Source: Candidatus Gottesmanbacteria bacterium (GTDB lineage Bacteria; Patescibacteriota; Microgenomatia; UBA10105). From it: a DNA stretch of 34,589 bases. A program made the translations under genes and the position numbers. The stretch is taken from positions 1-34,589 of the forward strand of contig JAHFKJ010000015.1 in assembly GCA_023245415.1 (NCBI GenBank), in the 5' to 3' direction. The notes beneath the pieces were generated by a model, which had not been told where the DNA came from, did not search any database, and saw nothing but the letters and a program-made list of their open reading frames with translations. Of this stretch, positions 5,637 to 31,044 are shown piece after piece. Every line of letters begins with the position of its first letter. Within the stretch, counting starts at the first letter, position 1.

Positions 5637-6089
5637 TTACTTAATATTCTTTTTCAACTCACTTAATCCGCCACCGCTCCAAGCGGTAACTTCTTTATCA
5701 TTCGCATCAACTTGGACGAATGTATGTTGATAAGGAATGCTATACAGTCTTTTGAGTTCAACTTCTGTATCAAAGTCAGTTTTAAACACAACTATATCTG
5801 CCGGAATTTTATCCATCATATCGGAAAATTCTTTATCAATCGGCTGACAGACGGGACACCACTTCGCATAAAAAAAGAGGATCCGTTTTTTATCTATTGC
5901 AGCAGTAAATGCATCTTTTGAATATATTTGATAACGACTTCCTTCTTTATTGACGATCACATTGTTTCGAATATCAATTTCTTCCTTTTTTAACGCTGTA
6001 TTTGATCCAGATTTCTGACGAATAAATATAACTCCACCGACAGCAATTACAAGAATAATTGCCCCTATAATAAGATAAATTTTATTCAT
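5637..6089 (-). CDS. Membrane-anchored thioredoxin-like protein
   Basis: With the start at 6089 the product is 150 residues: an N-terminal signal-anchor helix (about residues 3-24) and then a thioredoxin fold with the active site WCPVC (Cys78, Cys81) and a cis-Pro-like Ile-Pro-Tyr later on. The redox domain should face outside the membrane. The longer frame begins at ATG 6128 (163 residues). I prefer 6089 because GGGAG lies upstream of it and because a weak promoter (TTGTAA, 17-base spacer, TAAACT) abuts the 6128 codon. It lies just upstream of the dipZ-like gene in the same direction and is a natural redox partner for it. Similar small thioredoxins act in disulfide reduction, cytochrome maturation or stress defence; which applies here cannot be told. 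Confidence 0.83.
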   Translation of the reverse strand: MNKIYLIIGAIILVIAVGGVIFIRQKSGSNTALKKEEIDIRNNVIVNKEGSRYQIYSKDAFTAAIDKKRILFFYAKWCPVCQPIDKEFSDMMDKIPADIVVFKTDFDTEVELKRLYSIPYQHTFVQVDANDKEVTAWSGGGLSELKKNIK

Positions 6090-6224
6090 ATGAATCACTT
6101 CTCCCAATTTTCCCGTTACCGTATTCATAGTTTACCGATATTACAGTCAACTTACAAGTTATTCTTGACTTTTATGTTTAAGCCTTTATTAAAGTTGTAA
6201 TATACAGATGTATTTGAGGTTTTT

Positions 6225-8692: not shown

Positions 8693-9499
8693 ATGAGGTT
8701 ACCTTTTATTTTCCGTTTACCCAAAGTACAGTTGATTGGAATATTATTGTTGATATTTCTCACCGCATTACCTCAATATCCGTTAATTACAAGTATTCGG
8801 TTGTTTATATATACTGTTAGTTTTACAGTCTTTTTTGACCTACTCATCACCTGGACTGGAAAAAAACAGTTGTTTGTGCCGTTTGGTGGTTTGGTAACCG
8901 GAATCATTCTGTCCATGCTCATAACCCCTGATGCTTCTGTGGTTTACATCGTTGCTACTGCCGCAATTGCAATCTTGAGTAAACATTATTTGCGAATATC
9001 AGGTAAGCAAGTTTTTAATCCTGCCGGGTTTGGATTGTTTGTGAGCTCTATTATATTTTCACAGCACGTGACGTGGTGGGGAGTCGCATTTCAATCTGTG
9101 TCGTACTTGAACTCCATTCAGTTTCTAGTGTTTTTAATTCTTTTATTACCTTTGCTGATAACTGGATATCGTTTACGTCGATTTCCAGGGTCAGCGACTT
9201 TTTTAGTCACCTATGCATTTTTGTCACAATTTTTAAGCAGAGGCTGGTCATGGATTTCTTTACTACAAAACCTACTAAATCCCACTTTGATTTTTTTTGC
9301 AATCGTTATGCTTCCTGAACCAAAGACTTCTCCAGGAAAAATAAAAATACAATTTTGGTATGGATTGGCAATCGCGGCGATAATATATTTACTTACTCTT
9401 AGCAATTTAAGCCAGTTTTTAACCAGCCACGGATTGCTGCCCGACATATTATTGCTGGCTTTACTCATAAGCAATTTATGTTTTTTTAAATTCAAGTGA
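8693..9499 (+). CDS. NqrB/RnfD-like integral membrane protein
   Basis: A 268-residue polytopic protein with about eight hydrophobic segments. The segment SKHYLRISGKQVFNPAGFG (residues about 96-114) is characteristic of the NQR2/RnfD/RnfE family, the membrane subunits of Na+-translocating NADH:quinone oxidoreductase and Rnf complexes. The covalent-FMN threonine motif of true NqrB/RnfD is not evident, and no other nqr/rnf subunit gene is nearby, so energy-coupling activity is doubtful. It may be an orphan redox or transport membrane protein. It probably shares a transcript with the MGMT-like gene before it. No Shine-Dalgarno is visible. Confidence 0.8.
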   Translation: MRLPFIFRLPKVQLIGILLLIFLTALPQYPLITSIRLFIYTVSFTVFFDLLITWTGKKQLFVPFGGLVTGIILSMLITPDASVVYIVATAAIAILSKHYLRISGKQVFNPAGFGLFVSSIIFSQHVTWWGVAFQSVSYLNSIQFLVFLILLLPLLITGYRLRRFPGSATFLVTYAFLSQFLSRGWSWISLLQNLLNPTLIFFAIVMLPEPKTSPGKIKIQFWYGLAIAAIIYLLTLSNLSQFLTSHGLLPDILLLALLISNLCFFKFK

Positions 9500-9635: not shown

Positions 9636-9673
9636 TCCTGAGTTTAATCTAACGGGTCATGCTCGCCTGTTTG

Positions 9674-9754
9674 TGCTCCGTCGGCCAAAGCATTTGGCGG
9701 TGTGCGACCGGCAGGGATCGTCAGACGTTCCAGGTAGGGAGCATTTTTAAATGC
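9674..9754 (+). other. GC-rich block with nested stems just upstream of msrA (possible structured RNA)
   Basis: The 60 bases at 9661-9720 are 65% G+C by my count, against 32% for 9781-9840. Stem TGCTCC (9674-9679)/GGAGCA (9738-9743) encloses the hairpins gccaaa/tttggc (9684-9698), cggt/accg (9698-9710) and cgtc/gacg near 9720. A second hairpin, gcattt/aaatgc (9741-9754), uses the same gca and so excludes the closing stem. It ends just before the msrA Shine-Dalgarno. This could be a structured 5' leader or an inserted repeat of foreign base composition. I do not recognise a known RNA family. Confidence 0.4.
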
Positions 9755-9755
9755 C

Positions 9756-9760
9756 GAGGG
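9756..9760 (+). promoter_or_regulatory. Shine-Dalgarno GAGGG setting the msrA start at 9767
   Basis: GAGGG with a 6-base spacer precedes ATG 9767. It shows that the in-frame ATG at 9659 (which would add 36 residues encoded by the palindromic block) is not the true start. Confidence 0.75.
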
Positions 9761-9766
9761 TATATA

Positions 9767-10324
9767 ATGTCAAATGTGACAATTAAAAATAATTTACATG
9801 AAACAGTTACATTTGCCGGTGGATGTTTTTGGTGTACGGAAGCAGTTTTTCAAAAATTAAAAGGAGTTACTTCGGTAATACCGGGTTATACAGGTGGTAA
9901 AATTCCAAATCCTACTTATGAGCAAGTTTGCACTGGTACGACTGGACATGCAGAAGCTATTCAAATAATATTTGACCCAAACTTAATTCCCTTCCGTAAA
10001 CTGGTTGAGGTATTTTTTCATCTTCATGACCCGACCACATTAAATCGACAAGGTAACGACACGGGTACGCAATATCGCTCAGCTATATTTTATAGTTCGG
10101 AAACTCAAAAAAAGAATGCTCAGGAAGTAAAAGCAGATATTGGGCAACAAAAATTGTATCCGGGTAAAGTTGTCACGGAAATTGTCCCATTTACTAAATT
10201 TTATAAAGCCGAAAACTACCATCAGGATTACTACAACAAAAATTCTTATCAGCCGTACTGCCAATACGTCATCGACCCCAAAATCCAAAAGCTAAAAAAG
10301 GAATTCGCAGCAGAAGTGAAATAA
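9767..10324 (+). CDS. msrA: Peptide methionine-S-sulfoxide reductase MsrA
   Basis: A 185-residue protein of normal MsrA length from ATG 9767. The catalytic motif GCFWC (Cys20) and following Glu are intact, as are GYTGG and the GTQYRSAIF segment. A C-terminal Cys in QPYCQYV is placed to act as the resolving thiol. MsrA reduces the S-epimer of methionine sulfoxide in proteins, with thioredoxin as usual donor. The reading frame is open upstream to 9659, but that part is a GC-rich palindromic leader with no resemblance to MsrA. The 3' end is duplicated as a decayed fragment at 11135-11224. The partner enzyme MsrB is at 30502-31044. Confidence 0.96.
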   Translation: MSNVTIKNNLHETVTFAGGCFWCTEAVFQKLKGVTSVIPGYTGGKIPNPTYEQVCTGTTGHAEAIQIIFDPNLIPFRKLVEVFFHLHDPTTLNRQGNDTGTQYRSAIFYSSETQKKNAQEVKADIGQQKLYPGKVVTEIVPFTKFYKAENYHQDYYNKNSYQPYCQYVIDPKIQKLKKEFAAEVK

Positions 10325-11291: not shown

Positions 11292-11301
11292 AGTGATGTA
11301 T
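11279..11301 (+). promoter_or_regulatory. Direct repeat overlapping the promoter, likely antitoxin operator
   Basis: agtgatgtat occurs twice (11279-11288 and 11292-11301), 13 bases centre to centre, across the -10 box and start site. Ribbon-helix-helix antitoxins commonly repress their own operon by binding tandem repeats in this position. The role is inferred from location. Confidence 0.5.
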
Positions 11302-11575
11302 GTTAATGCGACGCACACAGATCTATTTGGATGAAGAAACCAAAGCGCTGGCTCAATGGCAGGCAAAAATCGAAGGCACCAGCATGTCTCATATTCTACG
11401 TGCCTCTGTTAAGGCTTACGTGAAGCCAAAAAATAAGAATAAAGTCAGTGACTTCATCCAGAGAATTGAAGCGTTGAATAAAAAATACCCGACTCCTCCT
11501 GGAACACCTACAGATATTGCCATGGAACATGATCATTACCTTTATGGAACACCCAAAAAATATTCTAAAAAATGA
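11300..11575 (+). CDS. Ribbon-helix-helix antitoxin
   Basis: A 91-residue protein. Residues about 3-45 form a ribbon-helix-helix fold (CopG/Arc type): the beta strand RRTQIYLDEE, then two helices ending in SHILRASVKAYV. The C-terminal half is charged with Pro-rich turns and should wrap the toxin. The start may be ATG 11300 or ATG 11306; the promoter favours a leaderless message with either. The stop overlaps the toxin start (ATGA), giving translational coupling. It should neutralise the PIN toxin and repress the operon. Confidence 0.85.
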   Translation: MLMRRTQIYLDEETKALAQWQAKIEGTSMSHILRASVKAYVKPKNKNKVSDFIQRIEALNKKYPTPPGTPTDIAMEHDHYLYGTPKKYSKK

Positions 11576-11961
11576 TATTTGTTGATTCAAGCTTTATCAT
11601 CTCAATCCTCCTGGAAACTGATCCGAATCATATAAGAGCCAAAAATACCTGGAACAATACGCCGATTGAGAAACTAATTTCAGAGAATATCCTCATGGAA
11701 GTACTGACAGTCGTAAGCCAAAGAAAAGGCCGTAATTTCGCTATTGAGGCATATCATGACATATCGGTCGATCACAAGCTATTTCCTGTAACAACCGACC
11801 GGTTTCAATCTGGACTCAAATTGTTTTTAAACCCAAAACTCCAAAAAGATATTTCGTTGATTGACTGTATTACCGCAGCAATTTGCCATGAACTCCACAT
11901 TAAACACATTCTCTCATTTGACAGCCATTTCCGTAAATTTGGTTTAATACCAGTTCCCTAG
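11572..11961 (+). CDS. vapC: PIN-domain ribonuclease toxin (VapC-like)
   Basis: A 129-residue PIN domain of typical VapC length. The acidic metal-binding set is present: Asp5 (FVDSS), Glu43 (LMEVL), Asp98 (SLIDC) and Asp117 (SFDSHF). VapC toxins are Mg2+/Mn2+-dependent endoribonucleases that cut tRNA or rRNA when free of antitoxin. The start overlaps the antitoxin stop by four bases. The pairing with a ribbon-helix-helix antitoxin is a known VapBC arrangement. The cassette is framed by a diverged direct repeat (11095-11131 and 11967-12000), which may mark how it was acquired. Confidence 0.9.
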   Translation: MIFVDSSFIISILLETDPNHIRAKNTWNNTPIEKLISENILMEVLTVVSQRKGRNFAIEAYHDISVDHKLFPVTTDRFQSGLKLFLNPKLQKDISLIDCITAAICHELHIKHILSFDSHFRKFGLIPVP

Positions 11962-12066: not shown

Positions 12067-15000
12067 ATGAAAAGTGAATACGCGAATCTTATTGAACTTG
12101 TGTTAGCTCAGGGAGTTGCCTATTCGAAGCTAATTGAAGAAATTCAAGTCAATATATTAATCGCTTACAAAAAAAGCTATCCCAAAGCTCCAATTGACTC
12201 AACCATTTTTATAGACGAAGCAAGTGGCCAAGTGCGGCTTATGAGTGATGGTAGGGATATTACTCCACAAAACTTTGCATCAACAGCCTCCCAAATCGCC
12301 CGGATGACGCTTATAAGTTACCTTACTTCTGCTAAAACTCCCGGCACAGACAAAAAAAATGTTCCAGAAACACCTCAAATCACCAACACCACTGATAAAC
12401 CCATAGGCAAATCTGCCATAGCTAATTTTTTAAGCCTGGCTTTGTTTTGGGGATATAACGGGTTGTATCTTTTATTTATGGCAGTGTTTATTTTAGGGTT
12501 AGCAACTTCCGACCTGCGTCATTCTTTGATAGATACATTTAAACAGTTAGGCAGTATTCGTTCATTTTTATTTGTCTTATTGCTTACAACTCCAGTTGCC
12601 ATCATTATCTTTTCGATACGGGAAAAACTGCATAAACAACCGGAAAAATTGGGCAAATTATTCTTCTTGCTGGAAATACCTCTTCTTATTCTCATTTATT
12701 TTCCGTTGAGCATATCCGTAAATTTAACGCCGATCATGTGGTTTTTTACGTTGATGCTCTTATTTATCCCGCCAACACTCTATTTCTATGAAGATATCAG
12801 TAAAGTGTCATCAACTGTCAAATTGACAATCTTGATGTCTGTCCAAGAGTTGTTGGCTATGGTTTCTATTTATTTGACTGCGTTATTAGCTTTTTTTGCG
12901 CCACTTATCTTAGGCGGTATTGCTTCAGAACTCTTCCGCGGTTTTTTCTCATCATTTAGCAGTTCGTATGGCGCACAATTTATGTATGCAGCTTCATTTT
13001 CCGATATAATCGGCAGACTTATTCTATTTGCTTTTGGGACACTGCTTCTCCTTGTGGTGTCAACGCTCATTCTCCTCCCCTTTTTAATCACGTACTTGTT
13101 TATTAAAAGCTTTTTAAGCACACGAAAAAATCTTGCTCATATCTATGATGAACGCAAGTTAAACCGTTTAAATATCGTATTTGCCATCGTTGTTTTTGTT
13201 GTAACGATCGGAATATCATACCAACCCAAAACTAACCAACTGCTAAACAAATTGGGAGAGTTTTCTCTGGCAACAAAATTTGCCGAAAAAGAGACTTTAG
13301 CACGGATTATAGTTCCTCATGAATCGGAGCTAAAAGAGGCGATCTTGGACATGTCTGATGCCAGCCGTCGTTTCTTATTTACCAAAGATGATATATCTTT
13401 AGCCCGCAGTTATGAAGATGTTTTTCAACTTAAACATACGCTTGCTGAATTTGTCCAAAAAACTTTTTTGACCATAGCCTACCCGTTTGTTTATCAAGGC
13501 AGTTCGAATAACTACAATGATCTGGCCCAACAGTTTACCTATGTTTTCGGTTACTCGCCACAGACTCAGGATAATTATAAACCCCAATTGCAGGAAAATG
13601 TCCGCGTCGTCAACCGGACAATTCGCGCGACAACTGATACTCAAAATCCGCTCGCTACCGTCACTTTTGAAGAAACTTATGAGAATAAAGTGTGGAGCAA
13701 TCAGGAAGTCGTCTACGAATTTTCGCTCCCCAATGAGGCAGTGATTACAGACCTTAAACTCGGGCCAAATCTGGAATTTCCAGGGATTATTGCGCCCATT
13801 GGTGCAGCGCAAAAAACTTATGAGCGGGAACTACAAAGAAGCCGCGATCCGGCGCTTCTGGAACAAATTGGCCCACGCCAATATCGGCTGCGGGTATTTC
13901 CGATCCCAGCGAAAAACGATACCGCTATTTTAAACGGCAAACTCCAAAAAGTTCAATTTACTTATGTGGTTGGGTTTGTACCCGATGGCATACCTTTGCC
14001 GAAATTTTCGAAAAAAACAAACGTAGGCGCTTATACACCGGAATTGGCATTTGTAAATGATAAAAAAACAGCAAATGTCAGAGACGAATATCTGGAATTT
14101 AATTCATGCGAAAGCCGCTTCAATGGCCAAATTAAACTTGGTTCTCAAGCAGTGTCTCTTGTACCGCATGAACTTTTGGATGGAAATCGAATCAGACCCT
14201 TATGCGTTGGATCGACACAAAATGGTGATATCTTAAATGCATTTTATAAAGGCAATAAAATCGCTTTGTTCTATGATGTTTCTTCTGATAATAGAGAGGA
14301 TAATTTCGGAAAAACGGTCAAACAGCACTTGGAAAGAAACGGGATTTACAAAAATAATACATATGATTTATATCTCTATAACGATCATCTAAGTGAAAAG
14401 AAACCGGTGACTGCTGATCTTCTGTCCACCTTTAGTCCGGTTTACTTTGGTAAAAGTGATGTACTCGGGGCGTTAAAAAATCTGCCTGTGGGATATGACG
14501 CAATAATGGTTATAAATAGCAGTAAGTCTCTCAACCAAGACAATACGTTGTTCACCTCAGTTAATGTGCCTGTATATTTTATCCAAACACGGGGTATCCC
14601 ATCTTACACACAAATACTCACTGCAAAAATTATCCAAAGTCATGGCTTAGTCACCGAATCAATCACCGAAGCATTGAATCACCTGGCGTTGAAAAAACAA
14701 CTCTATTCCGCAGGTACTGAAACACTTTATATTGGTCCGTATTGGAGTCTAATGACTAATCGAAATGCATCTATACCTTCAGTCCAAAATAAAGTTGCAG
14801 AAGGTGTTACTCCGCAATCATTTATGCTCTTACCGCCAATTCCACCGCCTCCGCCGATTGATTCGAGCGGCTGGGAAAATATGACTACATCAGCTGATAA
14901 TCCTTTATCGTATATTGTGGCCCACGCGTATTTTGCGCAGAAACTGACTGCATTTCCAACTAGTCCCTCAACAAGTGTGTCTTTCCTTGATGCAAGCAAC

Positions 15001-15414
15001 GCTTTCGCAGTTCAAACTCATATCATCACTCCCTATTCTTCACTAATCGCCCTCGTCAACGAACAACAGAAATTAATCCTGGAGCAAAATTCGCAAGGCT
15101 ATGATCGTTACGAAGAAAAGACACCACCAGAAATTATTACTCAACCTCTTTTCTCTAGACAACCTTCACTTGGTATCATGGATAACTTTGTGGGCATTGA
15201 GTTATTACAAGATAAAACATCAATGATACCCACTATTGAAAGTGGAGGTGGAATTAATACAGTTACGCCAAGAATCTATCGACCGGGTAATGGATTTTCA
15301 ATGAATATACTAGGCGGAAGTTCCCTCATCCTAGTTTTCATCGTCTTCACGGCTTTAATTTTTATTTCAGGCTTAACATTTCATCTCATGGGACTTATTA
15401 GAAAAAAGACATAA
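12067..15414 (+). CDS. Large multi-pass membrane protein with VIT domain and vWA-like region
   Basis: A 1115-residue protein. Residues 1-115 are a soluble, probably cytoplasmic domain. About 118-392 hold seven or so membrane helices. About 510-640 look like a VIT (inter-alpha-trypsin) domain, with the typical VTFEETYENK and later YRLRVFPIP segments. About 730-880 resemble a von Willebrand A fold, but the metal site is degenerate (DVSSD instead of DxSxS). A Pro-rich stretch (PPIPPPPP, near 924) and a final membrane helix (about 1081-1105) followed by Arg-Lys-Lys end the protein. The layout recalls the multi-pass VIT proteins linked to PEP-CTERM/exosortase systems (TIGR02921-like), but I cannot confirm membership and see no exosortase here. 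The large outer part suggests a surface or envelope role. It stands just before the Cys-rich surface cluster. Confidence 0.72.
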   Translation: MKSEYANLIELVLAQGVAYSKLIEEIQVNILIAYKKSYPKAPIDSTIFIDEASGQVRLMSDGRDITPQNFASTASQIARMTLISYLTSAKTPGTDKKNVPETPQITNTTDKPIGKSAIANFLSLALFWGYNGLYLLFMAVFILGLATSDLRHSLIDTFKQLGSIRSFLFVLLLTTPVAIIIFSIREKLHKQPEKLGKLFFLLEIPLLILIYFPLSISVNLTPIMWFFTLMLLFIPPTLYFYEDISKVSSTVKLTILMSVQELLAMVSIYLTALLAFFAPLILGGIASELFRGFFSSFSSSYGAQFMYAASFSDIIGRLILFAFGTLLLLVVSTLILLPFLITYLFIKSFLSTRKNLAHIYDERKLNRLNIVFAIVVFVVTIGISYQPKTNQLLNKLGEFSLATKFAEKETLARIIVPHESELKEAILDMSDASRRFLFTKDDISLARSYEDVFQLKHTLAEFVQKTFLTIAYPFVYQGSSNNYNDLAQQFTYVFGYSPQTQDNYKPQLQENVRVVNRTIRATTDTQNPLATVTFEETYENKVWSNQEVVYEFSLPNEAVITDLKLGPNLEFPGIIAPIGAAQKTYERELQRSRDPALLEQIGPRQYRLRVFPIPAKNDTAILNGKLQKVQFTYVVGFVPDGIPLPKFSKKTNVGAYTPELAFVNDKKTANVRDEYLEFNSCESRFNGQIKLGSQAVSLVPHELLDGNRIRPLCVGSTQNGDILNAFYKGNKIALFYDVSSDNREDNFGKTVKQHLERNGIYKNNTYDLYLYNDHLSEKKPVTADLLSTFSPVYFGKSDVLGALKNLPVGYDAIMVINSSKSLNQDNTLFTSVNVPVYFIQTRGIPSYTQILTAKIIQSHGLVTESITEALNHLALKKQLYSAGTETLYIGPYWSLMTNRNASIPSVQNKVAEGVTPQSFMLLPPIPPPPPIDSSGWENMTTSADNPLSYIVAHAYFAQKLTAFPTSPSTSVSFLDASNAFAVQTHIITPYSSLIALVNEQQKLILEQNSQGYDRYEEKTPPEIITQPLFSRQPSLGIMDNFVGIELLQDKTSMIPTIESGGGINTVTPRIYRPGNGFSMNILGGSSLILVFIVFTALIFISGLTFHLMGLIRKKT

Positions 15415-15517: not shown

Positions 15518-16681
15518 ATGTTTAAAAAATTGGGATTTTTGGCATTTCTAGTTTTAGTCAGTTCATTCATTCCTTTGAAAATTCCACGCCTTACGTATCC
15601 TCTAGTTATTTCCAAAATACCAACAGCTGTACCTGAAGTTAAGTCAGCAGTCACAGAAGGAGTTCCAGAAATGACGGAAATATTGTCTCCCGATCAGGAA
15701 CATCGCATAAAAGCTGGACGCAAACTCGTTGAACGCGTCGGAATCGAAGAGGCATTGGAAATACTGGAGCACTCACCGCTTCCTCATACTGGAGAAGGTC
15801 ATTTGGTCGTACATCAAATTGGTTTTTATGCGTATCAAAAATTTGGCATGCAAGGCATTTTGAAATGCAAAGATTATTTTCTGTTTGCCTGTTATCACGG
15901 TGTGATTATAGAAGCGGCAACAAATCAAGGCATACCAGCAATTGCTAAAATGACAGATATCTGCAAAGCTTCCTCAACCCGTTACTTTCAATGTGTCCAC
16001 GCTGCGGGACATGCGATATTGGCGATGTATAGCTATGATTTAGCTCAATCTCTCAAAACGTGCGACCAACTTTACGAAAATGAGATCCAATTTCCCGATG
16101 CGTTGAGTTCCTGTCATAATGGCGCATTTATGGAAAATCTGTTTGGTGTTCATGATTGGGGCAAAGATAAAACTCCAAAACGCGCCTGGCTTAAAGACGA
16201 CGACCCCTATTTTCCGTGTACTTATTTTGATGAAAAATATCAAAAAGGCTGCTGGTTAAACCAAGCTGCGCGAATTTATCAGATGTATCAGGGAAATATC
16301 CCCAAGACTGCCCATGCATGTGAGATTATAGGCAACCGCACTCATAGCGAATGGTGTTTTGACAATTTGGCACGACAAATTCATCCTTTATCCAACGGGG
16401 ATCCGGCTAAATCATTTGAACTCTGTCAACAAGTCGGCAGTTACTGGGAACAGGGATGTCTCATCGTCAACGCTCAAGCGTTTTATTCAGTGGGAGGCCG
16501 TCTTGATGGAATTAATATCTGTAGTAAGTTAGTAGACCAGGCCAGGCAAGTTTGTTATGCTAAAATCTTGAGTCAAATTATAAGTGATACGATACCGCCT
16601 CAAGAGAAAAAAAATTTATGCGACAGGTTAGATCCTCAATACAAAAAACAGTGTATAACTCAAGTCGAAATTCAGACTTGA
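15518..16681 (+). CDS. Exported Cys/His-rich helical-repeat (solenoid-like) protein, short paralogue
   Basis: A 387-residue protein with an N-terminal hydrophobic export signal (about residues 5-22). The core carries four spaced motifs also found twice in the protein at 19537-22068: HLVVH (95-99), CYHG (125-128), CVHAAGHA (159-166) and CHNGAFMEN (199-207). The rest is a series of amphipathic helical pairs, each with two Cys about 8-14 residues apart (for example CEIIGNRTHSEWC and CSKLVDQARQVC). They look like an alpha-hairpin solenoid held by disulfides. The conserved His/Cys set could bind metal or be catalytic. There is no CxxCH haem motif and I recognise no known family. It begins a rightward gene cluster, 66 bp before the next small gene. 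Confidence 0.78.
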   Translation: MFKKLGFLAFLVLVSSFIPLKIPRLTYPLVISKIPTAVPEVKSAVTEGVPEMTEILSPDQEHRIKAGRKLVERVGIEEALEILEHSPLPHTGEGHLVVHQIGFYAYQKFGMQGILKCKDYFLFACYHGVIIEAATNQGIPAIAKMTDICKASSTRYFQCVHAAGHAILAMYSYDLAQSLKTCDQLYENEIQFPDALSSCHNGAFMENLFGVHDWGKDKTPKRAWLKDDDPYFPCTYFDEKYQKGCWLNQAARIYQMYQGNIPKTAHACEIIGNRTHSEWCFDNLARQIHPLSNGDPAKSFELCQQVGSYWEQGCLIVNAQAFYSVGGRLDGINICSKLVDQARQVCYAKILSQIISDTIPPQEKKNLCDRLDPQYKKQCITQVEIQT

Positions 16682-16692
16682 CAGCACTTTGA

Positions 16693-16747
16693 AAAAGTTT
16701 CAATATTATATTTAGATTACGCGCAGAAGAATATTTTTGAAACTTTT
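16693..16747 (+). promoter_or_regulatory. Inverted repeat abutting the start codon of the small membrane protein gene
   Basis: aaaagtttca (16693-16702) and tgaaactttt (16738-16747) form a perfect 10-bp inverted repeat with a 35-base loop, the right arm ending immediately before ATG 16748. It could be a protein-binding site or an RNA stem that affects translation of 16748 and the coupled gene 17041. It has no terminator-like U run. Confidence 0.4.
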
Positions 16748-17044
16748 ATGGAAAATTCGCACCTGCCCAGGGCTGATTCATCCTTAATTGGCAAATTTAA
16801 ACTACATCCGATTCTTTTTAGCATCATTACTCTCTTGCTTCTTTCAAGCGTTACTTTAGCTGTATATTTTTTGACTACAGCGAAAAATTTCGAACCTCCC
16901 TCAAAAGCAAAGACAGTCACACAGAGTGATTCTACAGTGACTTTAAAAAGCGACTACAAAGATCCGTTTCAGCAAAAATCTCAATATATCAATCCTTTTG
17001 ATTTGACTAAAAGTCCTTTTTACAACTTAAAGAAAACTAAATGA
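16748..17044 (+). CDS. Small single-pass membrane protein with xPF motifs
   Basis: A 98-residue protein: a polar N-terminus, one strong membrane helix (about residues 22-44) and a polar tail with three spaced Pro-Phe motifs (DPF, NPF, SPF) ending in basic residues. Orientation is uncertain. Its stop overlaps the start of the 811-residue Cys/Tyr-Thr-Pro protein (ATGA), so the two are translationally coupled and their products probably work together, for example as anchor and surface protein (inference). No family recognised. Confidence 0.68.
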   Translation: MENSHLPRADSSLIGKFKLHPILFSIITLLLLSSVTLAVYFLTTAKNFEPPSKAKTVTQSDSTVTLKSDYKDPFQQKSQYINPFDLTKSPFYNLKKTK

Positions 17045-19476
17045 ACAAGCTGAAAATAGGAATTGGGTTAAGCATTAACATAGTAAGTTTTTTCTTAGTC
17101 AGTTCTGCGTATGCACAGCAGGCTTCACCATTTGTTTCAGTGATTCCCGTTACCACTCCACCCAAAAATATTACCGAATTGACATATCCTATCCCCGAAC
17201 TGGGAAACTGTAGTGATGCTGGCAGCTGTCTGACATTTTGCGACGATCCGGTCAACTTTAATCAGTGTGTAGACTATGCGAAAAAACAGGGATTTTATCA
17301 AGCGGATAAAATTCAGGAAGCTGATAAACAAATTTTAGAAAAAGCTAAAACGGAATTAAATTGTGATAGCCTGGAAACGTGTCTTAAATTGTGTGACGAC
17401 GAAACAAATCACGATATTTGTGACACATTTGCAAAACGTGAAAACTTGATCGGCGGGTATACAGATTCACCAGATAAACCGGAATATATAGAAAAAGCCA
17501 AAACTGTTTTGGGCTGCGATTCACAAGCGACATGCAGCAAATTTTGCGACGACCCGACTCATGCCAGCCAGTGTACTGCATTCGCGCATCAAGTCGGATT
17601 ATTAGGCGGTACAGTCGAAACTGGCCCTGGCGGTTGTACATCAACTGGTACGTGCAAATCTTTTTGCAGCGATCCGAATAATTTTAACGCGTGTAGTTCT
17701 TATGTTCCACCCGCAACAGGTGGCACATTTCATGGTCCTGGAGGATGTAACAGTCAAACTGGCTGCCGGAGTTTTTGTGAAGAGCATCCGGGAGATTGTC
17801 GCAGTTACTCACCAGGATCAAATGGTGTCTATGTTCCTATTACCTGTCCGGCTAATCAGTATATTGGACCAGGCGGAAATTGCACTCCAATTGAAAAAAC
17901 TCAAGAAGCTGTTCAATGCAATGGTACGGGAAAATATTGGAATGGTGCAAGCTGTACTGATCAACCACCTCAGGGAATAGTTGCTGGGTCAGTTACAAAC
18001 AGTGCTTATTTTCAATCACGACCGGATATGGGGAACTGCGATACACCAAGTGAATGTTATGACTGGTGTAAGACGAATCCGGGTCAATGTCCGGGGCTTA
18101 AAAATGATACCCAAAGACCGGATGATAAATATATTCCGAGTTTATATTATACTCCCGGTACTCCTGTCAAAATGGATCCGCGGCAGGAAATGGGTAATTG
18201 TGATTCTCCGGGAAAATGTTATGACTGGTGTAAGGATCATCCGGATAAATGTCAAGGATTTAATGCAAATGCTCCTCGGCCAGTAGATCAGTATGTTCCT
18301 GGTACCTATTATACACCGCCTACTGATTATGTCTACGTCACACCGCCGATAACCAACTATTATGTCACACCGGTTTATTATAGCCCGCCTGTTGGAATTC
18401 AATATTCTACACCTGCTTATTATACTCCTGGACAATACTCCACTCCATCTTATTATAGTCCGTCTACATTGGCTAATTATTCAACTCCTACATATTACAC
18501 CCCAGGATCGCATTATGTCACTCCGTCTGCTGAATATCCTACACCTAATTATCCAACTCCGATTTATTATACACCACCAATAACGAGTAATTACACTACG
18601 CCAACTTACTATACGCCGGCTGTATACGTCACTCCTACTTATTACACCCCACCTTCAGGATCAACGTATACTACTCCTACATATTTAACTCCGCCGCCAT
18701 ATAATACACCCACATATTACACGCCTTATACCGGTGCCAACTATGCAACTCCGGTATATTACACACCGCCTGTATATTCCACACCGACTTATTACACGCC
18801 ACCACCAGGATCTAACTACACTACTCCGACATATGTATCACCATCAACTTACACTACACCGACTTATTATACACCGGGGTATTATACTCCGTATACAACT
18901 CCTAATAACTATTACACACCAGGAAGCGGATATACATATCCGACTCCAGCATATAGTTATCCGACACCAGGAAGTGCATATACCTACCCGACACCCGGAA
19001 GTAGTTATTCATACCCCACTCCGGGAACGACGTATACGACACCGTCCTATCCAACTCCAGCCAGCTATATCACACCCGGTTATTACACACCGGGAGGAAG
19101 TTATGTTTCGCCAGCTTATTACACGCCAAACGGAAATTACTATACCCCTGGTAGTTATGTCACTCCAGGAAGTTATAGTTATCCTACGCCAAACGGAACC
19201 TTTTCATATCCTACACCAGACAGTTACTCTTATCCAACACCAAATTACGCAACTCCTGCATATGTCACTCCGACTTACGGGACTCCAAGTTATGCTACTC
19301 CTTCATATGGAACACCATCCTACAGCACACCTTCGTATAATTCGCCGTCATATGGTACACCTTCTTATGAAACACCTGCCTATGGCACACCATCTTATAA
19401 CACTCCAAGTGTACAGGGAGAATCTACCAGTCGCAGTTGGCTAGACTTCATTCGGCAATTGCTATTTGGCAAATAA
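17041..19476 (+). CDS. Exported protein with Cys-rich modules and long Tyr-Thr-Pro repeat tail
   Basis: An 811-residue protein. Residues 1-26 are a good signal peptide ending AYA. About 55-410 contain seven short Cys modules with the spacing C-x5-C-x3-C-x(5-8)-C, the first at Cys57/63/67/76 (NCSDAGSCLTFC). Modules 1-4 match closely, 5-7 are shorter, and the last two share the segment CYDWCK. About 420-790 are low-complexity, dominated by Tyr, Thr, Pro, Ser and Gly in YYTP, TPTYY and PSYGTP units, with no Cys and hardly any charge. A basic amphipathic helix (SRSWLDFIRQLLFGK) closes the protein. This looks like a disulfide-bonded head on an extended tyrosine-rich stalk or matrix. Function is unknown. 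The start overlaps the upstream stop by four bases. Confidence 0.8.
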   Translation: MNKLKIGIGLSINIVSFFLVSSAYAQQASPFVSVIPVTTPPKNITELTYPIPELGNCSDAGSCLTFCDDPVNFNQCVDYAKKQGFYQADKIQEADKQILEKAKTELNCDSLETCLKLCDDETNHDICDTFAKRENLIGGYTDSPDKPEYIEKAKTVLGCDSQATCSKFCDDPTHASQCTAFAHQVGLLGGTVETGPGGCTSTGTCKSFCSDPNNFNACSSYVPPATGGTFHGPGGCNSQTGCRSFCEEHPGDCRSYSPGSNGVYVPITCPANQYIGPGGNCTPIEKTQEAVQCNGTGKYWNGASCTDQPPQGIVAGSVTNSAYFQSRPDMGNCDTPSECYDWCKTNPGQCPGLKNDTQRPDDKYIPSLYYTPGTPVKMDPRQEMGNCDSPGKCYDWCKDHPDKCQGFNANAPRPVDQYVPGTYYTPPTDYVYVTPPITNYYVTPVYYSPPVGIQYSTPAYYTPGQYSTPSYYSPSTLANYSTPTYYTPGSHYVTPSAEYPTPNYPTPIYYTPPITSNYTTPTYYTPAVYVTPTYYTPPSGSTYTTPTYLTPPPYNTPTYYTPYTGANYATPVYYTPPVYSTPTYYTPPPGSNYTTPTYVSPSTYTTPTYYTPGYYTPYTTPNNYYTPGSGYTYPTPAYSYPTPGSAYTYPTPGSSYSYPTPGTTYTTPSYPTPASYITPGYYTPGGSYVSPAYYTPNGNYYTPGSYVTPGSYSYPTPNGTFSYPTPDSYSYPTPNYATPAYVTPTYGTPSYATPSYGTPSYSTPSYNSPSYGTPSYETPAYGTPSYNTPSVQGESTSRSWLDFIRQLLFGK
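18302..19405 (+). repeat. Coding low-complexity repeat tract (Tyr-Thr-Pro)
   Basis: About 1.1 kb of degenerate repeats of the type tat-tac-aca-cct in the reading frame of the 811-residue protein. Codons vary at third positions (aca/act/acg, ccg/cca/cct/ccc), which suggests selection on the protein repeat and not recent DNA slippage. Toward the end the unit settles to five codons (TPSYG/TPSYN). A spurious 236-residue frame (18734-19444) is a shadow of this tract. Confidence 0.9.
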
Positions 19477-19536
19477 TCATTACCACTCTGTCCGCAGGTA
19501 AAAACTATTACTACTTAATTTTAGATATTTCAAATA

Positions 19537-22068
19537 ATGAAATATATATTCAGTTGCGTCTTGTATCTCATACTTTTACTATTTAATATTCCTCACGCAC
19601 AGGCACATTCATTAAAAGTAATAGTTCGTATGAGTGCTGCTGGTTTTATTCCAGCAAATGTAACTGCGGATGAAAATCAATCCGTTGTTTTTATAAATGA
19701 AGACAAAGAAGATCATTGGCCAGCCAGTGATATTCATCCGACACATGAATTATATCCGGAATTTGATCCTCAAAAATCTATTACACCAGGTCAAAAATGG
19801 GAATTTACTCCCCAAAAAGTCGGTTCCTGGAAATTTCATGATCATTTGTTTCCGCATTTCCGCGGTTTAGTAAATGTAATAAATGAAGCAGAATTTTCGA
19901 GGCAAAGTTCTCCTTCTACAAGTTTCTTATCAACAGCTAAAGACTCAATATCATTGCTCCATCGAATCTGGCTATGGTTCACTCATTTATTTTCGCAATT
20001 TATCGCGCGCTGGATTCTATTATGGTCATTTCCCAAAACCATTTCTTCTTCACATCCAGATGCGCAAAAGTTTAAGCAAATTTCTGAAAAAGAACAGTTA
20101 GTCATCTTGGATAATTTAATTAAACAATCAGGAAGTCAATCTACCTGGAGTTATTTACTTAACTCATTCTCTGGTGAATCGGGGACAAAGGGCAATGTTC
20201 ATGATTTGGCACATTTTATCGGTAGTCTGATATTCAAAAAAGATGGTTTTCCCGGACTGGTTATTTGTACACCACAATTTGCATTTGGTTGTTATCATGG
20301 ATTCCTAGACAGCGCGTTTAAAGAGAGTTTGGAACAGTTACCCCAGGCTGAACAGGCATGTCAAAAACTGGGAACAGGTATTTCCGGTCCGGTATCAAGC
20401 TGCATACACGGCATTGGGCACGGGGTTGCCAGTTTTTATCAAACTTCCGATCTTACTCGAGCGCTAACTGTGTGTCAACGCCTTTCTCTACCAGCTCAAA
20501 CCTATTGTCACGACGGCGTGTTTATGGAATTTGCCCACAATGCTCCAGTGAGTTTTTTTAAATCCGCAAAGCCACTTTATCCATGTGATGAAATTGCCGA
20601 GATTTATCACTTTACCTGTGGTCGAAATCTACCATTTATTTTAAGGCAACGATATGCATACTCCTACACTAAAATTGTCACTGTCTGTCTAGAACAAATG
20701 GATACAAATTTAAAAAACGGCTGTGTAGATGCACTGGGTTTTACCGCAGTTGCCTCTGCCTCGGGCGATACGAAGTCAATTCTTGATATGTGCGCGCTGA
20801 TTGTTGATACAACCTATAATTTTCGCTGTGTGCAAGCCGCTGCTGGTGAGCTGGTCTTTCAGGAATTTCCGGGTTGGCAAACTGATGCGCTTATACTGTG
20901 CAAATCACTTACCCTCGAGTACCAAAATCAATGTCAAACTTATGTTCAAAATATAATTACTGTTTATGGCCGCTTCCAAACTTTTCAATTTCGATCTTAC
21001 CGGAAAAATGAAGATAAGTCTTTGTATGTTCGCGAACAAATGGCCATTTGCTACCAGCAGGGAGGCAGAGATTCATGCTACAAACAAACTGCGGATTTAT
21101 TTTCCCGCCAATTTCCGCTAAAAGAGACACTTGCTCTTTTTGCCCAAACTGAAGCGTATCCGGAAATTTACACCCGCTGTCATGAAGTTACACATTACCT
21201 TTCTCGGAATGAGTTTACCAAAAATCAAAGCGTACCTGAAACTTACAGCCAATGTAATTCGACCTGTCACGGTGGCTGTTACCACGGAGTTCTTGAAGCA
21301 TACCTCAAATCCAAACAAGTTGCACTTGATAGCCCGCAGTTTAACCAAGAGTTTAAAACTGTCTGCGGCCAGATCTCTGATTACACCAAGCCTTTATTAT
21401 TTTACGAATGCTTGCATGGACTCGGACATGCGGCTATGTTTGTGACAGATATGGAACTTCCCCAATCATTGGCCCTATGTGACTTATTACCAGATTCGGC
21501 CAATCAACCCCGCTGTTATAGTGGTATTTTTATGGAAAATTCCTCAAGCTCGACGAGCACCGACCATCCGGGTAAATATGTGAAAAAATCTGATCTGCTC
21601 TATCCGTGTTCGATACTTGAGAGTAAATATCTTGCGACGTGTTACCGCTACCAAAGTTCTTATTTTTCTTTACTTACAAACCACAATTGGGTTGAAGTCG
21701 CCCGTCTGTGCCAAACTGCACCGGTTGCATACCAGGATGAATGCATAAGAACTATTGGCACGAACCAGGTCGGATTTACACAGGACTTTATGCAGATGAA
21801 AGCTAACTGTCAAAATCTGACAACGTACGATTTTCGACGCCTTTGCTTTGATGGAGTGATTTCTTCTTTGGCTTATCGTTATGTCGGAGATGTGCAAAAA
21901 ATGGTCGATTTTTGCGGATTGGTACCAAATGAAAGCCAAGAAAGTTGTTTTCATCAAATTGGATCAGCTTTAACTGACTGGACTTCGCACCGAGACGAAG
22001 CCAGTCACTGGTGTGAACAAATTCAAAATCTTAAGCAGCAAGCCTGGTGCAAACAATCAATTACTTAA
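19537..22068 (+). CDS. Exported cupredoxin + double Cys/His helical-repeat (solenoid-like) protein
   Basis: An 843-residue protein with a signal peptide (1-23, ending AQA). Residues about 25-116 are a cupredoxin-like domain; first copper His candidate His60. The usual Cys ligand position reads His (FHDHLFPHFRG, His101/103/107), so a blue type-1 site is unlikely. The remainder holds two copies of the motif set seen in the 15518 protein. Copy 1: HDLAH 222-226, CYHG 252-255, CIHGIGHG 289-296, CHDGVFMEF 324-332. Copy 2: HEVTH 549-553, CYHG 581-584, CLHGLGHA 625-632, CYSGIFMEN 660-668. Many helical hairpins with paired Cys lie between and after. The spacing of motifs is nearly constant among all three copies. 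The stop overlaps the convergent SDR gene end by 12 bases. Possible roles are metal binding or an extracellular redox scaffold, both inferred. Confidence 0.8.
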   Translation: MKYIFSCVLYLILLLFNIPHAQAHSLKVIVRMSAAGFIPANVTADENQSVVFINEDKEDHWPASDIHPTHELYPEFDPQKSITPGQKWEFTPQKVGSWKFHDHLFPHFRGLVNVINEAEFSRQSSPSTSFLSTAKDSISLLHRIWLWFTHLFSQFIARWILLWSFPKTISSSHPDAQKFKQISEKEQLVILDNLIKQSGSQSTWSYLLNSFSGESGTKGNVHDLAHFIGSLIFKKDGFPGLVICTPQFAFGCYHGFLDSAFKESLEQLPQAEQACQKLGTGISGPVSSCIHGIGHGVASFYQTSDLTRALTVCQRLSLPAQTYCHDGVFMEFAHNAPVSFFKSAKPLYPCDEIAEIYHFTCGRNLPFILRQRYAYSYTKIVTVCLEQMDTNLKNGCVDALGFTAVASASGDTKSILDMCALIVDTTYNFRCVQAAAGELVFQEFPGWQTDALILCKSLTLEYQNQCQTYVQNIITVYGRFQTFQFRSYRKNEDKSLYVREQMAICYQQGGRDSCYKQTADLFSRQFPLKETLALFAQTEAYPEIYTRCHEVTHYLSRNEFTKNQSVPETYSQCNSTCHGGCYHGVLEAYLKSKQVALDSPQFNQEFKTVCGQISDYTKPLLFYECLHGLGHAAMFVTDMELPQSLALCDLLPDSANQPRCYSGIFMENSSSSTSTDHPGKYVKKSDLLYPCSILESKYLATCYRYQSSYFSLLTNHNWVEVARLCQTAPVAYQDECIRTIGTNQVGFTQDFMQMKANCQNLTTYDFRRLCFDGVISSLAYRYVGDVQKMVDFCGLVPNESQESCFHQIGSALTDWTSHRDEASHWCEQIQNLKQQAWCKQSIT

Positions 22069-27796: not shown

Positions 27797-28840
27797 ATGC
27801 ATATACCTGACGGTTATCTTAGCCCAGCAACATCAGTTACTCTATACTCCATGTGTGTCCCCTTTATGGCTAAAGCATCGAAGGAAACAAAAAGAAAACT
27901 CAATGACAAAACAGTTCCGCTCATATCATTATTTTCTGCACTCTCCTTTGTCATTATGATGTTTAATGTGCCGCTTCCAGGTGGCACGACCGGACATGCA
28001 GTCGGAGCTACTATCACGGCAATTGTTTTAGGCCCTTGGATTGCGATGCTATCTCTCACTGTAGCACTTGTGATACAGGCGCTTTTTTTCGGCGATGGTG
28101 GCATTCTAGCCCTGGGAGCAAATGTTTTTAATATGGTCATTGTGATGACACTATCAGGCTATTTCATATATCAAATCCTAGATAGATGGTCCAAGACCCT
28201 GGTAAAACGGAAAGTGATCTTTTCGGCAGTTGCTGGTTATATTTCTATAAATCTGGCTGCCCTGTGTACCGCAGTTGAACTTGGAATTCAGCCACTTCTG
28301 TTTCACAATAATCTTGGTCAATCACTTTATTTTCCCTACGGCTTAAATGTATCGATTCCCTCAATGCTGATTGGACACTTGACCATAGCCGGTTTTGCTG
28401 AAGCCTTGGTCACCGGACTCATTTTATCGTGGATCTATAAAACCAATCCGGGAATTATGACATCGAATATGAATTCTGTTGAGAAAAATTACCCAATAGT
28501 CAAATGGGGATTGATTGCTTTAGGCGTACTTGTTATTTTATCTCCGCTTGGCCTTTTGGCTCCAGGAACCGCGTGGGGAGAATGGGGACGGATAGAACTT
28601 GAGAAACTGGGACTCGGATACATTCCACAAGGCTTTGACAAATGGTCCAATTTCTGGAAAGCACCACTATCTCAATATAACTTACCTCAATCAGGAAATC
28701 CAACCATCGGGTATATGTTTTCCGGATTTATAGGAGTATTTATGACCATACTCGTTTTATCAGGTACATTTTGGATTATGCGAAGACTGTCTAAAAATAA
28801 TATTTTGAAAGTAAGTAAAAAACCTGGAAAAAGTACATAA
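27797..28840 (+). CDS. cbiM: Cobalt/nickel ECF transporter S component CbiM with fused CbiN/PDGLE-like domain
   Basis: A 347-residue membrane protein. It begins MHIPDG, the conserved N-terminus whose amino group and His2 bind the metal in CbiM/NikM. Residues 1-210 hold the CbiM core, with PGGTTGHAVGA and FGDGGILALGAN motifs. Residues about 235-335 have two membrane helices around a loop with SPLGLLAPGTAWGEW, like the CbiN/NikN (PDGLE) partner domain that stimulates uptake, here fused. It imports Co2+ or Ni2+ together with the T component and ATPase encoded next. The stop overlaps the cbiQ start by one base. No cobalamin riboswitch is visible upstream, where only 10 bases separate it from the acetyltransferase. 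Confidence 0.94.
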   Translation: MHIPDGYLSPATSVTLYSMCVPFMAKASKETKRKLNDKTVPLISLFSALSFVIMMFNVPLPGGTTGHAVGATITAIVLGPWIAMLSLTVALVIQALFFGDGGILALGANVFNMVIVMTLSGYFIYQILDRWSKTLVKRKVIFSAVAGYISINLAALCTAVELGIQPLLFHNNLGQSLYFPYGLNVSIPSMLIGHLTIAGFAEALVTGLILSWIYKTNPGIMTSNMNSVEKNYPIVKWGLIALGVLVILSPLGLLAPGTAWGEWGRIELEKLGLGYIPQGFDKWSNFWKAPLSQYNLPQSGNPTIGYMFSGFIGVFMTILVLSGTFWIMRRLSKNNILKVSKKPGKST

Positions 28841-29670
28841 TGTCTTTTCTTGAACAAAACCTTCACCATATTACTGAGACTCTGCAAAATACGCTTTATG
28901 TGGAACACATCACCAAACTACCCGGGTTAATCCAACATTTAGATCCAAGAACACGCATCATTTGTTTCTGTTTATTACTTATGAGCGTAAATCTTTCTAA
29001 GAATATCGTTTTTATACTTTCTGTATATGTATTTTTATTACTTTTAGCATATGCGTCGCAAATTCCACTTAAATTTTTTATAATGCGCGTCTGGATGTTT
29101 TTACCTTTTTTTACCGGGATTATTGCACTACCCGCGATATTTAATGTTTTTACACCGGGGAACGCGCTGTTAACACTTATTAATCTACCAAATTATCACC
29201 TGTATATTTCGATTACCCAAAACGGTGTATTTTCTGCTGCTTATTTGTTAACCCGGGTTGCCACTTCCGTATCTTCAGCAATTCTACTAGTTTTAACCAC
29301 CGATTGGATTCAATTACTGAAATCACTTGAACGATTGCATGTGCCAAAAATGTTTATTATCGTAAGTCTTATAACCTATCGTTATATATTTGTGCTTTTA
29401 AAAACTACCAATAATATGCTGCTTTCCAGAAAAAGCCGGATGATCGGTAAACCGCAAAATCAGACTCATAGATGGTGGATCGGAGGAACGCTGGGCACAC
29501 TTTTTAATAAAACACAAACACTCAGCGAAGATGTTTATAAAGCAATGAGATCGCGAGGATATGCGAATCAAATAATTATATTAAGTGACTTTCACTACCA
29601 GTTTGTAGACTATGTGGCGATTGGTGTAACGTTTACACTTATTGTCATGTTATATTTCATCTGGAACTAA
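28840..29670 (+). CDS. cbiQ: ECF transporter T component CbiQ
   Basis: A 276-residue membrane protein with five or six helices. It has the family's DPRTR motif early (near residue 32) and the C-terminal coupling motif AMRSRGY (residues about 232-238), which contacts the ATPase. It couples ATP hydrolysis to the CbiM substrate unit. Its ATG overlaps the cbiM TAA by one base, so translation is coupled. Confidence 0.93.
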   Translation: MSFLEQNLHHITETLQNTLYVEHITKLPGLIQHLDPRTRIICFCLLLMSVNLSKNIVFILSVYVFLLLLAYASQIPLKFFIMRVWMFLPFFTGIIALPAIFNVFTPGNALLTLINLPNYHLYISITQNGVFSAAYLLTRVATSVSSAILLVLTTDWIQLLKSLERLHVPKMFIIVSLITYRYIFVLLKTTNNMLLSRKSRMIGKPQNQTHRWWIGGTLGTLFNKTQTLSEDVYKAMRSRGYANQIIILSDFHYQFVDYVAIGVTFTLIVMLYFIWN

Positions 29671-29674
29671 AACT

Positions 29675-30499
29675 ATGCCGACTAAAATTTTATTTGAGCT
29701 CAAAAATGTCAGTTTTACCTATCAATTGACTCACGCCCTCGATAATATCAGTTTTACAATTAGTGAAGGAGAAAAACTAGTCTTACTGGGAGCAAATGGA
29801 TCAGGCAAAAGCACATTGCTTAAAATATTAGATGGGCTGGTATTCCCTACTCAGGGTATAGTGCAAGCATTTGGTCACACAATTAACTCAGACTATTTTA
29901 GCAAAGAAAAACAAGAATATGATTTCCGCAAACGAGTCGGCTACATATTTCAAGACTCAGATGTCCAGCTCTTTTCTCCGACCGTTTGGGACGAAGTTAC
30001 GTTTGCACCCCTCCAATTAGGTCTATCGCAAGAACTTGTGACTAAACAGGCAGAATCCGCTCTTAAAATCATGGAAATAACTCATCTTAAGAATAGGATT
30101 CCCTTTCAACTTTCAGGAGGTGAAAAGAAAAAAGTAGCCATTGCCTGCGTCCTCTCCTATAAACCCACTGTGTGGTTATTTGACGAACCGACATCTGGCT
30201 TGGACCCACGTAGTCAAAGCAGACTAATAGATTTTATATTTGAAGTGAATGCTCAAAAGAATACAGTGATCACCGCGACTCATGATTTATTTATACTTAC
30301 GGAAATTGCCAACCGGGTCATCGTTCTTTCTGAAGATCACCAAATTGTAGCTGATGACACTCCACAGGAAATTCTTGCGGACACAAAACTACTTACCAAG
30401 CATAACCTCATACATGCACATATTCACAAACATTTAAATCAAGAACATGAGCACATCCACACACATACCTCTGACCATACACATTTATCAATTAAATAA
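29675..30499 (+). CDS. cbiO: ECF transporter ATPase CbiO with His-rich tail
   Basis: From ATG 29675, 4 bases after the cbiQ stop, the protein has 274 residues. The longer frame from 29642 adds 11 residues overlapping cbiQ and is not needed. Walker A GANGSGKST, Q-loop FQDSDVQLF, signature LSGGEKKKVAIA, Walker B VWLFDEPT and a His switch (ATHDLF) are intact and typical of CbiO. The last 30 residues contain 11 His, mostly as alternating HxH, a probable metal-binding tail fitting Ni2+ or Co2+ handling. It ends two bases from the convergent msrB stop. Confidence 0.94.
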   Translation: MPTKILFELKNVSFTYQLTHALDNISFTISEGEKLVLLGANGSGKSTLLKILDGLVFPTQGIVQAFGHTINSDYFSKEKQEYDFRKRVGYIFQDSDVQLFSPTVWDEVTFAPLQLGLSQELVTKQAESALKIMEITHLKNRIPFQLSGGEKKKVAIACVLSYKPTVWLFDEPTSGLDPRSQSRLIDFIFEVNAQKNTVITATHDLFILTEIANRVIVLSEDHQIVADDTPQEILADTKLLTKHNLIHAHIHKHLNQEHEHIHTHTSDHTHLSIK

Positions 30500-30501
30500 A
30501 A

Positions 30502-31044
30502 CTATTTATCTGGAATAAACTCAAGAGCTGCTGAATTCATACAATATCTTTTTCCAGTCGGCACTGGTCCATCATCAAATACATGTCCTAAATGTCCGCC
30601 GCACTTATCCAAAACTTCAACCCGAGTTTGGCCAAAACTGGTATCTTCGCGAAGTACCACTGCATCGGGCTGGATCGGCGCCCAGAAACTCGGCCAGCCA
30701 GTACCTGAATCGTATTTTTGTTCAGAACGGAAAACTGGTTCTTTACAGCCAACACTTACATAAATCCCTTTTTGCGAATTATGAAGTAATGTGCCGGTGA
30801 ATGGGACTTCTGTCCCCTGCTCGCGTAAAATATGAAATTGAAGTGGAGTCAAAAGCTTTTTCCACTGGGCATCAGTTTTGGTTTTAGTTGCATCAAAAGT
30901 ACCAGAAACCGGCGCCGTCTCCGGATTCTTCCGCCCCAACATGTTTGGAGATAGACGCAATCCCCCAATAACCACAATTATTAAAGTACCAATCAATATC
31001 GGTTTTTTATATCGAGTCAAAAAATTCATTCTCTGTTGTTTCAT
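30502..31044 (-). CDS. msrB: Membrane-anchored methionine-R-sulfoxide reductase MsrB
   Basis: A 180-residue protein: an N-terminal membrane helix (about residues 14-30), a linker and an MsrB domain (about 58-178). Catalytic Cys168 lies in RYCMNS, and GTGWPSFW and HLGHVFDDGP are conserved. The four Cys of the structural zinc site are reduced to single Cys100 and Cys148, so this is the zinc-free form; Cys100 may resolve the sulfenic acid. MsrB repairs the R-epimer, complementing MsrA. The anchor puts the enzyme outside the cytoplasm, alongside the thioredoxin and DipZ-like proteins. A TATACT box ends 7 bases before ATG 31044, so the message is probably leaderless. ATG 31029 is an alternative start. 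Confidence 0.94.
   Translation of the reverse strand: MKQQRMNFLTRYKKPILIGTLIIVVIGGLRLSPNMLGRKNPETAPVSGTFDATKTKTDAQWKKLLTPLQFHILREQGTEVPFTGTLLHNSQKGIYVSVGCKEPVFRSEQKYDSGTGWPSFWAPIQPDAVVLREDTSFGQTRVEVLDKCGGHLGHVFDDGPVPTGKRYCMNSAALEFIPDK

Follow-up and report, generated by a model that had tools for sequence, protein, structure and literature searches.

The window analysed here is a stretch of 34,589 nucleotides from a Candidatus Gottesmanbacteria bacterium (assembly GCA_023245415.1, contig JAHFKJ010000015.1, positions 1 to 34,589, forward strand). Two of its genes, here called P0001 and P0002, encode exported proteins sharing a domain of paired Cys and conserved His residues that is predicted to fold as a helical solenoid (Table 1). 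Both open reading frames (ORFs), encoding 387 and 843 residues, lie where an earlier note, made from the letters of the DNA, had placed them.

Motifs, paired cysteines and conservation of the shared domain

The four ordered motifs that the earlier note had described (HxxxH, CYHG, CxHxxGH and CxxGxFME) were all located in this order, once in P0001 and twice in P0002, where the two sets begin at H222, C252, C289 and C324 and at H549, C581, C625 and C660, respectively. Motif spacing agreed with the near-constant ranges given there (34-44 and 35-40 residues), measuring 34, 37 and 44 residues between the second and third motifs and 40, 35 and 35 between the third and fourth in the three sets; overlooked was the HxxxH that the third motif itself contains. 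A search with P0001 recovered both copies in P0002 (E values of 2.9e-16 and 2.4e-11) as well as a third gene, which lies on contig 20 of this genome (1.7e-26); the motif sets of P0001 and P0002 are therefore homologous copies of one domain and not chance resemblances. P0001 contains exactly 16 Cys, arranged as eight consecutive pairs (117-125, 149-159, 182-199, 234-245, 268-280, 303-314, 335-346 and 368-379), and the 34 Cys following the signal peptide of P0002 form 17 pairs. The Cys-paired hairpins that the note had seen are thus present, but had been undercounted (at least four and eight or more, respectively). Haem CxxCH motifs are absent from the solenoid domain, as it had said, and identification as a haem c protein was rejected on this ground.

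Conservation was assessed over 149 non-redundant family sequences (at most 80% identity, P0001 numbering). H95, H99, H127, H161 and H165 were each present in 148-149 of the 149, which supports the proposal that conserved His residues form a potential metal-binding site. Among the sequences with a residue at the respective position, M205 (the Met of FME) was kept in 98% and E206 in 89%; the stronger conservation of the Met had not been noticed before.

No significant profile match was obtained for the solenoid domain in Pfam, NCBIfam or PHROGs, apart from sporadic matches of single members, the best of which (SOR, 8.5e-4) was seen in one of 23 members; identity with SOR was rejected, as the match was not repeated in the other 22. 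A sequence search of the PDB gave no relative (best E value 0.2), and open-access literature searches (CPR and cupredoxin; CopC/CopD with unknown domains; Patescibacteria with copper and disulfide) returned no title or abstract describing the family. That the family is undescribed, as the note had suspected, is well supported within the libraries searched.

Table 1. Positions of P0001, P0002 and the two genes between them, with their domains and motifs, in the window (pLDDT, predicted local distance difference test).
Feature	Positions	Strand	Basis
P0001: exported/membrane-anchored protein, one Cys/His solenoid domain, 387 residues	15518..16681	+	
P0001 solenoid domain, residues 60-386	15695..16675	+	AlphaFold2 pLDDT >90, Cys positions, Cys co-variation
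P0001 motif 1, H95xxxH99	15800..15814	+	invariant, 149 sequences
P0001 motif 2, C125-Y-H127-G	15890..15901	+	H in 148/149
P0001 motif 3, C159-x-H161-x-x-G-H165 (C159VHAAGH165)	15992..16012	+	H161 148/149, H165 149/149
P0001 motif 4, C199-x-x-G-x-F-M205-E206 (C199HNGAFME206)	16112..16135	+	M 98%, E 89%
98-residue protein, single hydrophobic segment, member of conserved four-gene block	16748..17044	+	homologues in same place in three other genomes
811-residue secreted protein, Cys-rich repeats then Pro/Thr/Tyr-rich low-complexity tail, block member	17041..19476	+	homologues in same place in three other genomes
P0002: signal peptide, cupredoxin-like domain and two solenoid domains, 843 residues	19537..22068	+	
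P0002 cupredoxin-like domain, first residue His if the signal is cleaved as predicted (AQA before HS)	19606..19881	+	PF13473, AlphaFold2, Foldseek
P0002 H67-P-T-H70, cupredoxin-like domain	19735..19746	+	both His invariant, 39 sequences
P0002 H101-D-H103, cupredoxin-like domain, Asp at type 1 copper Cys position	19837..19845	+	HxH invariant; amicyanin alignment
P0002 solenoid domain 1, motifs at 20200, 20290, 20401 and 20506	20110..20973	+	
P0002 solenoid domain 2, motifs at 21181, 21277, 21409 and 21514	21079..22065	+	

Predicted fold and distribution

The AlphaFold2 model of P0001 (84 homologues; mean pLDDT 86.5, predicted template modelling score 0.82, pLDDT >90 for 285 of 387 residues) was all-helical, with a short helix ending in Cys alternating with a long helix that bears a Cys near its start; the solenoid comprises about eight helical hairpins with one Cys pair each and a Cys period of 32-46 residues. 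The invariant residues follow a Cys by 1-7 residues, in the first half of four consecutive long helices (93-116, 124-137, 153-170 and 195-209), and because they share this position they are predicted to be in register along one edge of the solenoid. Tandem hairpins of 30-40 residues and best Foldseek matches of the ARM and TPR type place the model in the ARM/TPR/Sel1 class of helical repeats. No solved structure was matched by Foldseek at E<1e-3, the best being designed armadillo repeats at a template modelling (TM) score of about 0.2, and the superhelix therefore appears to be new; a viral fold library likewise gave no match at E<1e-3. A LanC-like zinc cyclase, considered because of the CYHG/HGxGH spacing, was rejected, there being no Pfam match, no such protein in the best 50 Foldseek matches, and a linear solenoid in place of a toroid.

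Support for the Cys pairs as disulfide staples comes from their joint gain and loss in the sequences. Cys at positions 94 and 121 were both present or both absent in 148 of 148 sequences with both columns filled, and those at 117 and 125 in 149 of 149, while 268 and 280 disagreed in one sequence. A tree from which these columns were left out showed 4 changes of the 94/121 pair and 10 of the 117/125 pair, both Cys changing together each time; only 2 and 5 of the changes, respectively, fall on well supported branches. Of the two alternative putative staples next to H95 and H127, at least one is kept in every sequence but one. The almost perfect co-variation, together with a modelled core above a pLDDT of 90, agrees with the exported, disulfide-stapled alpha-solenoid that had been predicted. 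Disulfide-stapled Sel1-like proteins such as Helicobacter Hcp are, like the present family, exported and built of helical hairpins with a Cys-pair staple each; the solenoid differs from them in having no Sel1 or TPR match in Pfam, another superhelix (TM score of about 0.2 to solved solenoids) and the invariant His/Met set.

The solenoid profile matched 23 of 380 genomes of the Candidate Phyla Radiation (CPR), often in several copies each; contigs were scanned with profile A3, an initial one (A1) proving overly diverse for this purpose. From one restrictive peptide pattern applied to 84,980 species genomes, 248 loci were confirmed, a lower bound, of which 80 were kept (taxon names are those of the records, many of them metagenome bins). 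The family is not restricted to CPR bacteria: besides CPR groups, the confirmed loci span SAR202 and Dehalococcoidia, Thermoanaerobaculia, Acidimicrobiia, Rubrobacter, Binatia, Myxococcales, Nitrospirae and a Woesearchaeote, so that the phyla beyond CPR include Actinomycetota, Chloroflexota, Acidobacteriota, Binatota and Myxococcota, in addition to an archaeon. Occurrence was sporadic in Actinomycetota (8 of 199 sampled genomes), and in samples of 118-201 genomes from Chloroflexota, Acidobacteriota, Binatota and Myxococcota the family was found in the seed genome only. Two cultured organisms, Kitasatospora purpeofusca and Gemmatirosa kalamazoonensis, carry family genes on plasmids. A phage origin was rejected, as no member was found among 50,697 phage records. 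A nearly tandem run of eleven solenoid genes, together with one stand-alone cupredoxin-like gene, occupies L161:4566-18323 in one CPR genome (G018); all of them are diverged.

Partner domains and a possible role in copper binding

Residues 24-115 of P0002, not recognised in the earlier note, form a cupredoxin-like domain (PF13473 at 3.8e-5, below the gathering threshold) that was modelled at a pLDDT of 92.5 with a cupredoxin fold (Foldseek TM score 0.82 to the purple cupredoxin 5fc9 of Nitrosopumilus maritimus). The fold is common to type 1 cupredoxins (plastocyanin, amicyanin, 5fc9), from which the domain differs at the site itself: in 39 homologues aligned with amicyanin, W-P-A, HPxH, an Asp and HxH were invariant, whereas Asp or Asn took the place of the type 1 Cys and neither His nor Met of the loop was conserved. 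A type 1 (blue) copper site was rejected, the ligand set of Cys, two His and axial Met being incomplete. In members whose signal peptide is cleavable, His usually comes directly after AxA (12 of 26 cupredoxin proteins relative to 15 of 359 background ORFs, p=5e-9), with signal cleavage predicted by motif only and with anchored members having no AxA-H; P0002 has AQA before HS at its predicted cleavage site. Having lost the blue-copper site but kept HPxH and HxH, and with a His predicted at its mature N-terminus, the domain probably holds a type-2-like or His-brace-like copper site. In the CuB site of PmoB (particulate methane monooxygenase), copper is bound by the mature N-terminal His and an HxH (His33, His137 and His139; PMC12576850), the same kind of residue set as is predicted here; the P0002-type domain differs in having no PmoB match in Pfam, an extra HPxH and no methane monooxygenase partner subunits in view, and may itself be an undescribed cupredoxin variant.

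Cupredoxin-like domains were found in 53 of 171 distinct family ORFs (all loci), N- or C-terminal to the solenoid, and also as products of genes neighbouring a solenoid gene. They occurred in 18 of 23 solenoid-positive and 79 of 357 other CPR genomes (p=6e-8, a value that ignores relatedness). CopC-CopD proteins encoded at four loci in Actinomycetota have the solenoid as their C-terminal domain (CopC 6.5e-19, CopD 6.5e-11). This arrangement resembles that of the Bacillus subtilis copper importer YcnJ, which is CopC-CopD-YtkA (PMC12362106), in that CopC-CopD is followed by an extracytoplasmic C-terminal domain; it differs in having the solenoid in the place of YtkA, and most family members are without CopC-CopD. 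An N-terminal cytochrome c domain (CBB3, 7.7e-9) is present in one member, another (L119) is fused to a transmembrane domain of unknown kind with nothing significant in Pfam, and in five loci from Saccharibacteria and Actinomycetota a membrane-anchored cytochrome-b5-like gene directly follows the solenoid gene. On the Kitasatospora plasmid the family gene has as neighbours a regulator of the BlaI/MecI/CopY type and a gene for cytochrome c oxidase assembly, and a CopC gene lies at a distance of 6.6 kb. A heavy-metal P-type ATPase with an HMBD is encoded beside a family gene in one CPR genome. In a Saccharibacterium, a SOUL haem-binding protein (L101:3277-3846, 2.4e-48) is encoded two genes downstream of the family gene. 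COX1 was present in 5 of 26 solenoid-positive and 1 of 54 solenoid-negative CPR genomes (p=0.013, again ignoring relatedness); as it is missing from the other 21 and from the genome of the window, a role as terminal-oxidase assembly factor was rejected.

Since the solenoid is fused to copper-handling parts in several lineages, the family is a probable new kind of extracellular copper protein, a link that the earlier note, which had gone no further than a site for metal binding or enzyme activity, did not suggest. We give about an even chance to the reading that it is an exported solenoid that binds copper outside the membrane and captures, holds or passes it, with or without redox chemistry. 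Copper as the metal is suggested by the fusions and the conservation pattern. The five invariant His and the near-invariant Met, with the common Glu, may form one site and would bind copper outside the membrane; the two solenoids of P0002 would act together with its N-terminal cupredoxin-like domain, while elsewhere the solenoid would work with CopC-CopD, and the module would capture, hold or pass copper at the cell surface. A redox step is possible because of the haem partners (cytochrome c and cytochrome-b5-like).

Several observations weigh against this copper reading. The evidence for copper is confined to the fusions and a few neighbourhoods; 113 of the 171 family ORFs have no recognised partner domain; and, as a Pfam scan of 112 neighbours found scattered housekeeping genes and no enriched family, copper or other, the general gene neighbourhood lends it no support. 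The cupredoxin-like profile (WPASN/HPTH/HDH) matched 97 of 380 CPR genomes, about four times the tally of the solenoid and often alone, so that many CPR genomes have this domain without a solenoid. The window itself has no copper gene near P0001 or P0002, only genes for thioredoxin/DsbD and methionine sulfoxide reductases.

The strongest rival is a catalytic copper enzyme, in which the solenoid would be an oxidase, monooxygenase or reductase with mono- or dinuclear copper (for example, H95/H99/H127 and H161/H165/M205), fed by haem partners. It would account for the cytochrome c fusion, the cytochrome-b5-like neighbour in five loci and the transmembrane fusion in L119, and PHM has the same inventory of five His and one Met; redox partners are, however, found in few loci, the neighbourhood ties the family to no substrate or pathway, and the assignment of ligands to two separate sites is guesswork, and we regard this rival as unlikely. 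PHM, unlike the present family, is not a helical solenoid, and no sequence or fold match of the solenoid with PHM or dopamine beta-monooxygenase was found. The likeness to these enzymes lies in the ligand inventory, which in PHM comprises three His at CuH and His242, His244 and Met314 at CuM (PMC6123673). Type 3 dicopper proteins (tyrosinase, hemocyanin) offer no fit: Pfam gave no match to them, and the solenoid has five invariant His in place of six. Distinctly improbable, in our view, is a new class of extracytoplasmic copper oxidoreductase, in CPR bacteria and beyond, uniting a five-His, one-Met solenoid site with a His-brace-like cupredoxin and haem b or c partners.

The solenoid could also be a hydrolase or haem protein with another cofactor (Zn, Fe, di-iron or haem b), its copper links being incidental. 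Helix-borne sites rich in His and Glu commonly bind Zn and Fe, the Glu of FME is 89% conserved, and the SOUL gene lies nearby in the Saccharibacterium. This is nevertheless unlikely, given that the Met is conserved above the Glu, that the domains fused to the solenoid are copper-related (CopC-CopD, cupredoxin-like), with none of an iron or zinc kind, and that haem CxxCH is missing from the domain.

The four-gene block and its surroundings

The P0001 gene, those of the 98- and 811-residue proteins and the P0002 gene lie on a single strand with gaps of 66, -4 and 60 bases. All four occur in the same order in a genome of the same family as that of the window (L159), and the order is also found in two genomes of another family (L157 and L158), with one to four extra solenoid genes inserted; the four probably make up one exported system. 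The 811-residue protein, which had no match in Pfam or NCBIfam, contains Cys motifs that recur (such as CDSLETCLKLCDDETNHDICDTFA) and, after them, a long tail of the PTYYTP type. The position of this repetitive, surface-type protein between the two family genes, here and in three relatives, would fit surface scaffolds or adhesins of CPR epibionts, in which the conserved His would serve structure and arrays of paralogues, with up to 11 diverged copies in one CPR genome (L161), would diversify host contact. We consider such a role very unlikely, because the five His are kept in the paralogues, the family is also found in Actinomycetota, Chloroflexota, Binatota and Myxococcota, and a fusion with CopC-CopD would be unexpected for an adhesin.

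Directly upstream of the block lies a gene for a TIGR02921-like multi-transmembrane protein with a VIT domain (12067-15414, 2e-62). At 11300-11961 a short probable antitoxin gene is followed by one for a PIN-like toxin, by appearance likely a toxin-antitoxin pair. A fusion of DsbD transmembrane, thioredoxin and Thioredoxin_10 domains is encoded at 3628-5532 on the minus strand, with several tandem copies of SASSGQVP in its linker (about 4498-4644), and relatives of this gene occur near the family loci in L069, L073 and L075. The window also contains a thioredoxin gene (5637-6128) and genes for MsrA and MsrB (PMSR and SelR, at 9659-10324 and 30502-31044), an NQR2/RnfD-like membrane protein (8693-9499, 2.8e-12) with no further Rnf gene recognised in the window, and, by sequence appearance, genes for a CbiM-CbiQ-CbiO-like energy-coupling factor cobalt/nickel transporter (27797-30499).

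The family thus combines a strictly invariant putative metal site and an occurrence in many phyla and an archaeon with the lack of a name, a solved relative or a known superhelix. A homologue, KPHV_86690, in the isolated actinomycete Kitasatospora purpeofusca HV058 makes it testable. If copper binding holds true, the solenoid would be a new scaffold for copper biology, and would provide a specific and testable extracellular activity for CPR bacteria, whose known redox functions are few.

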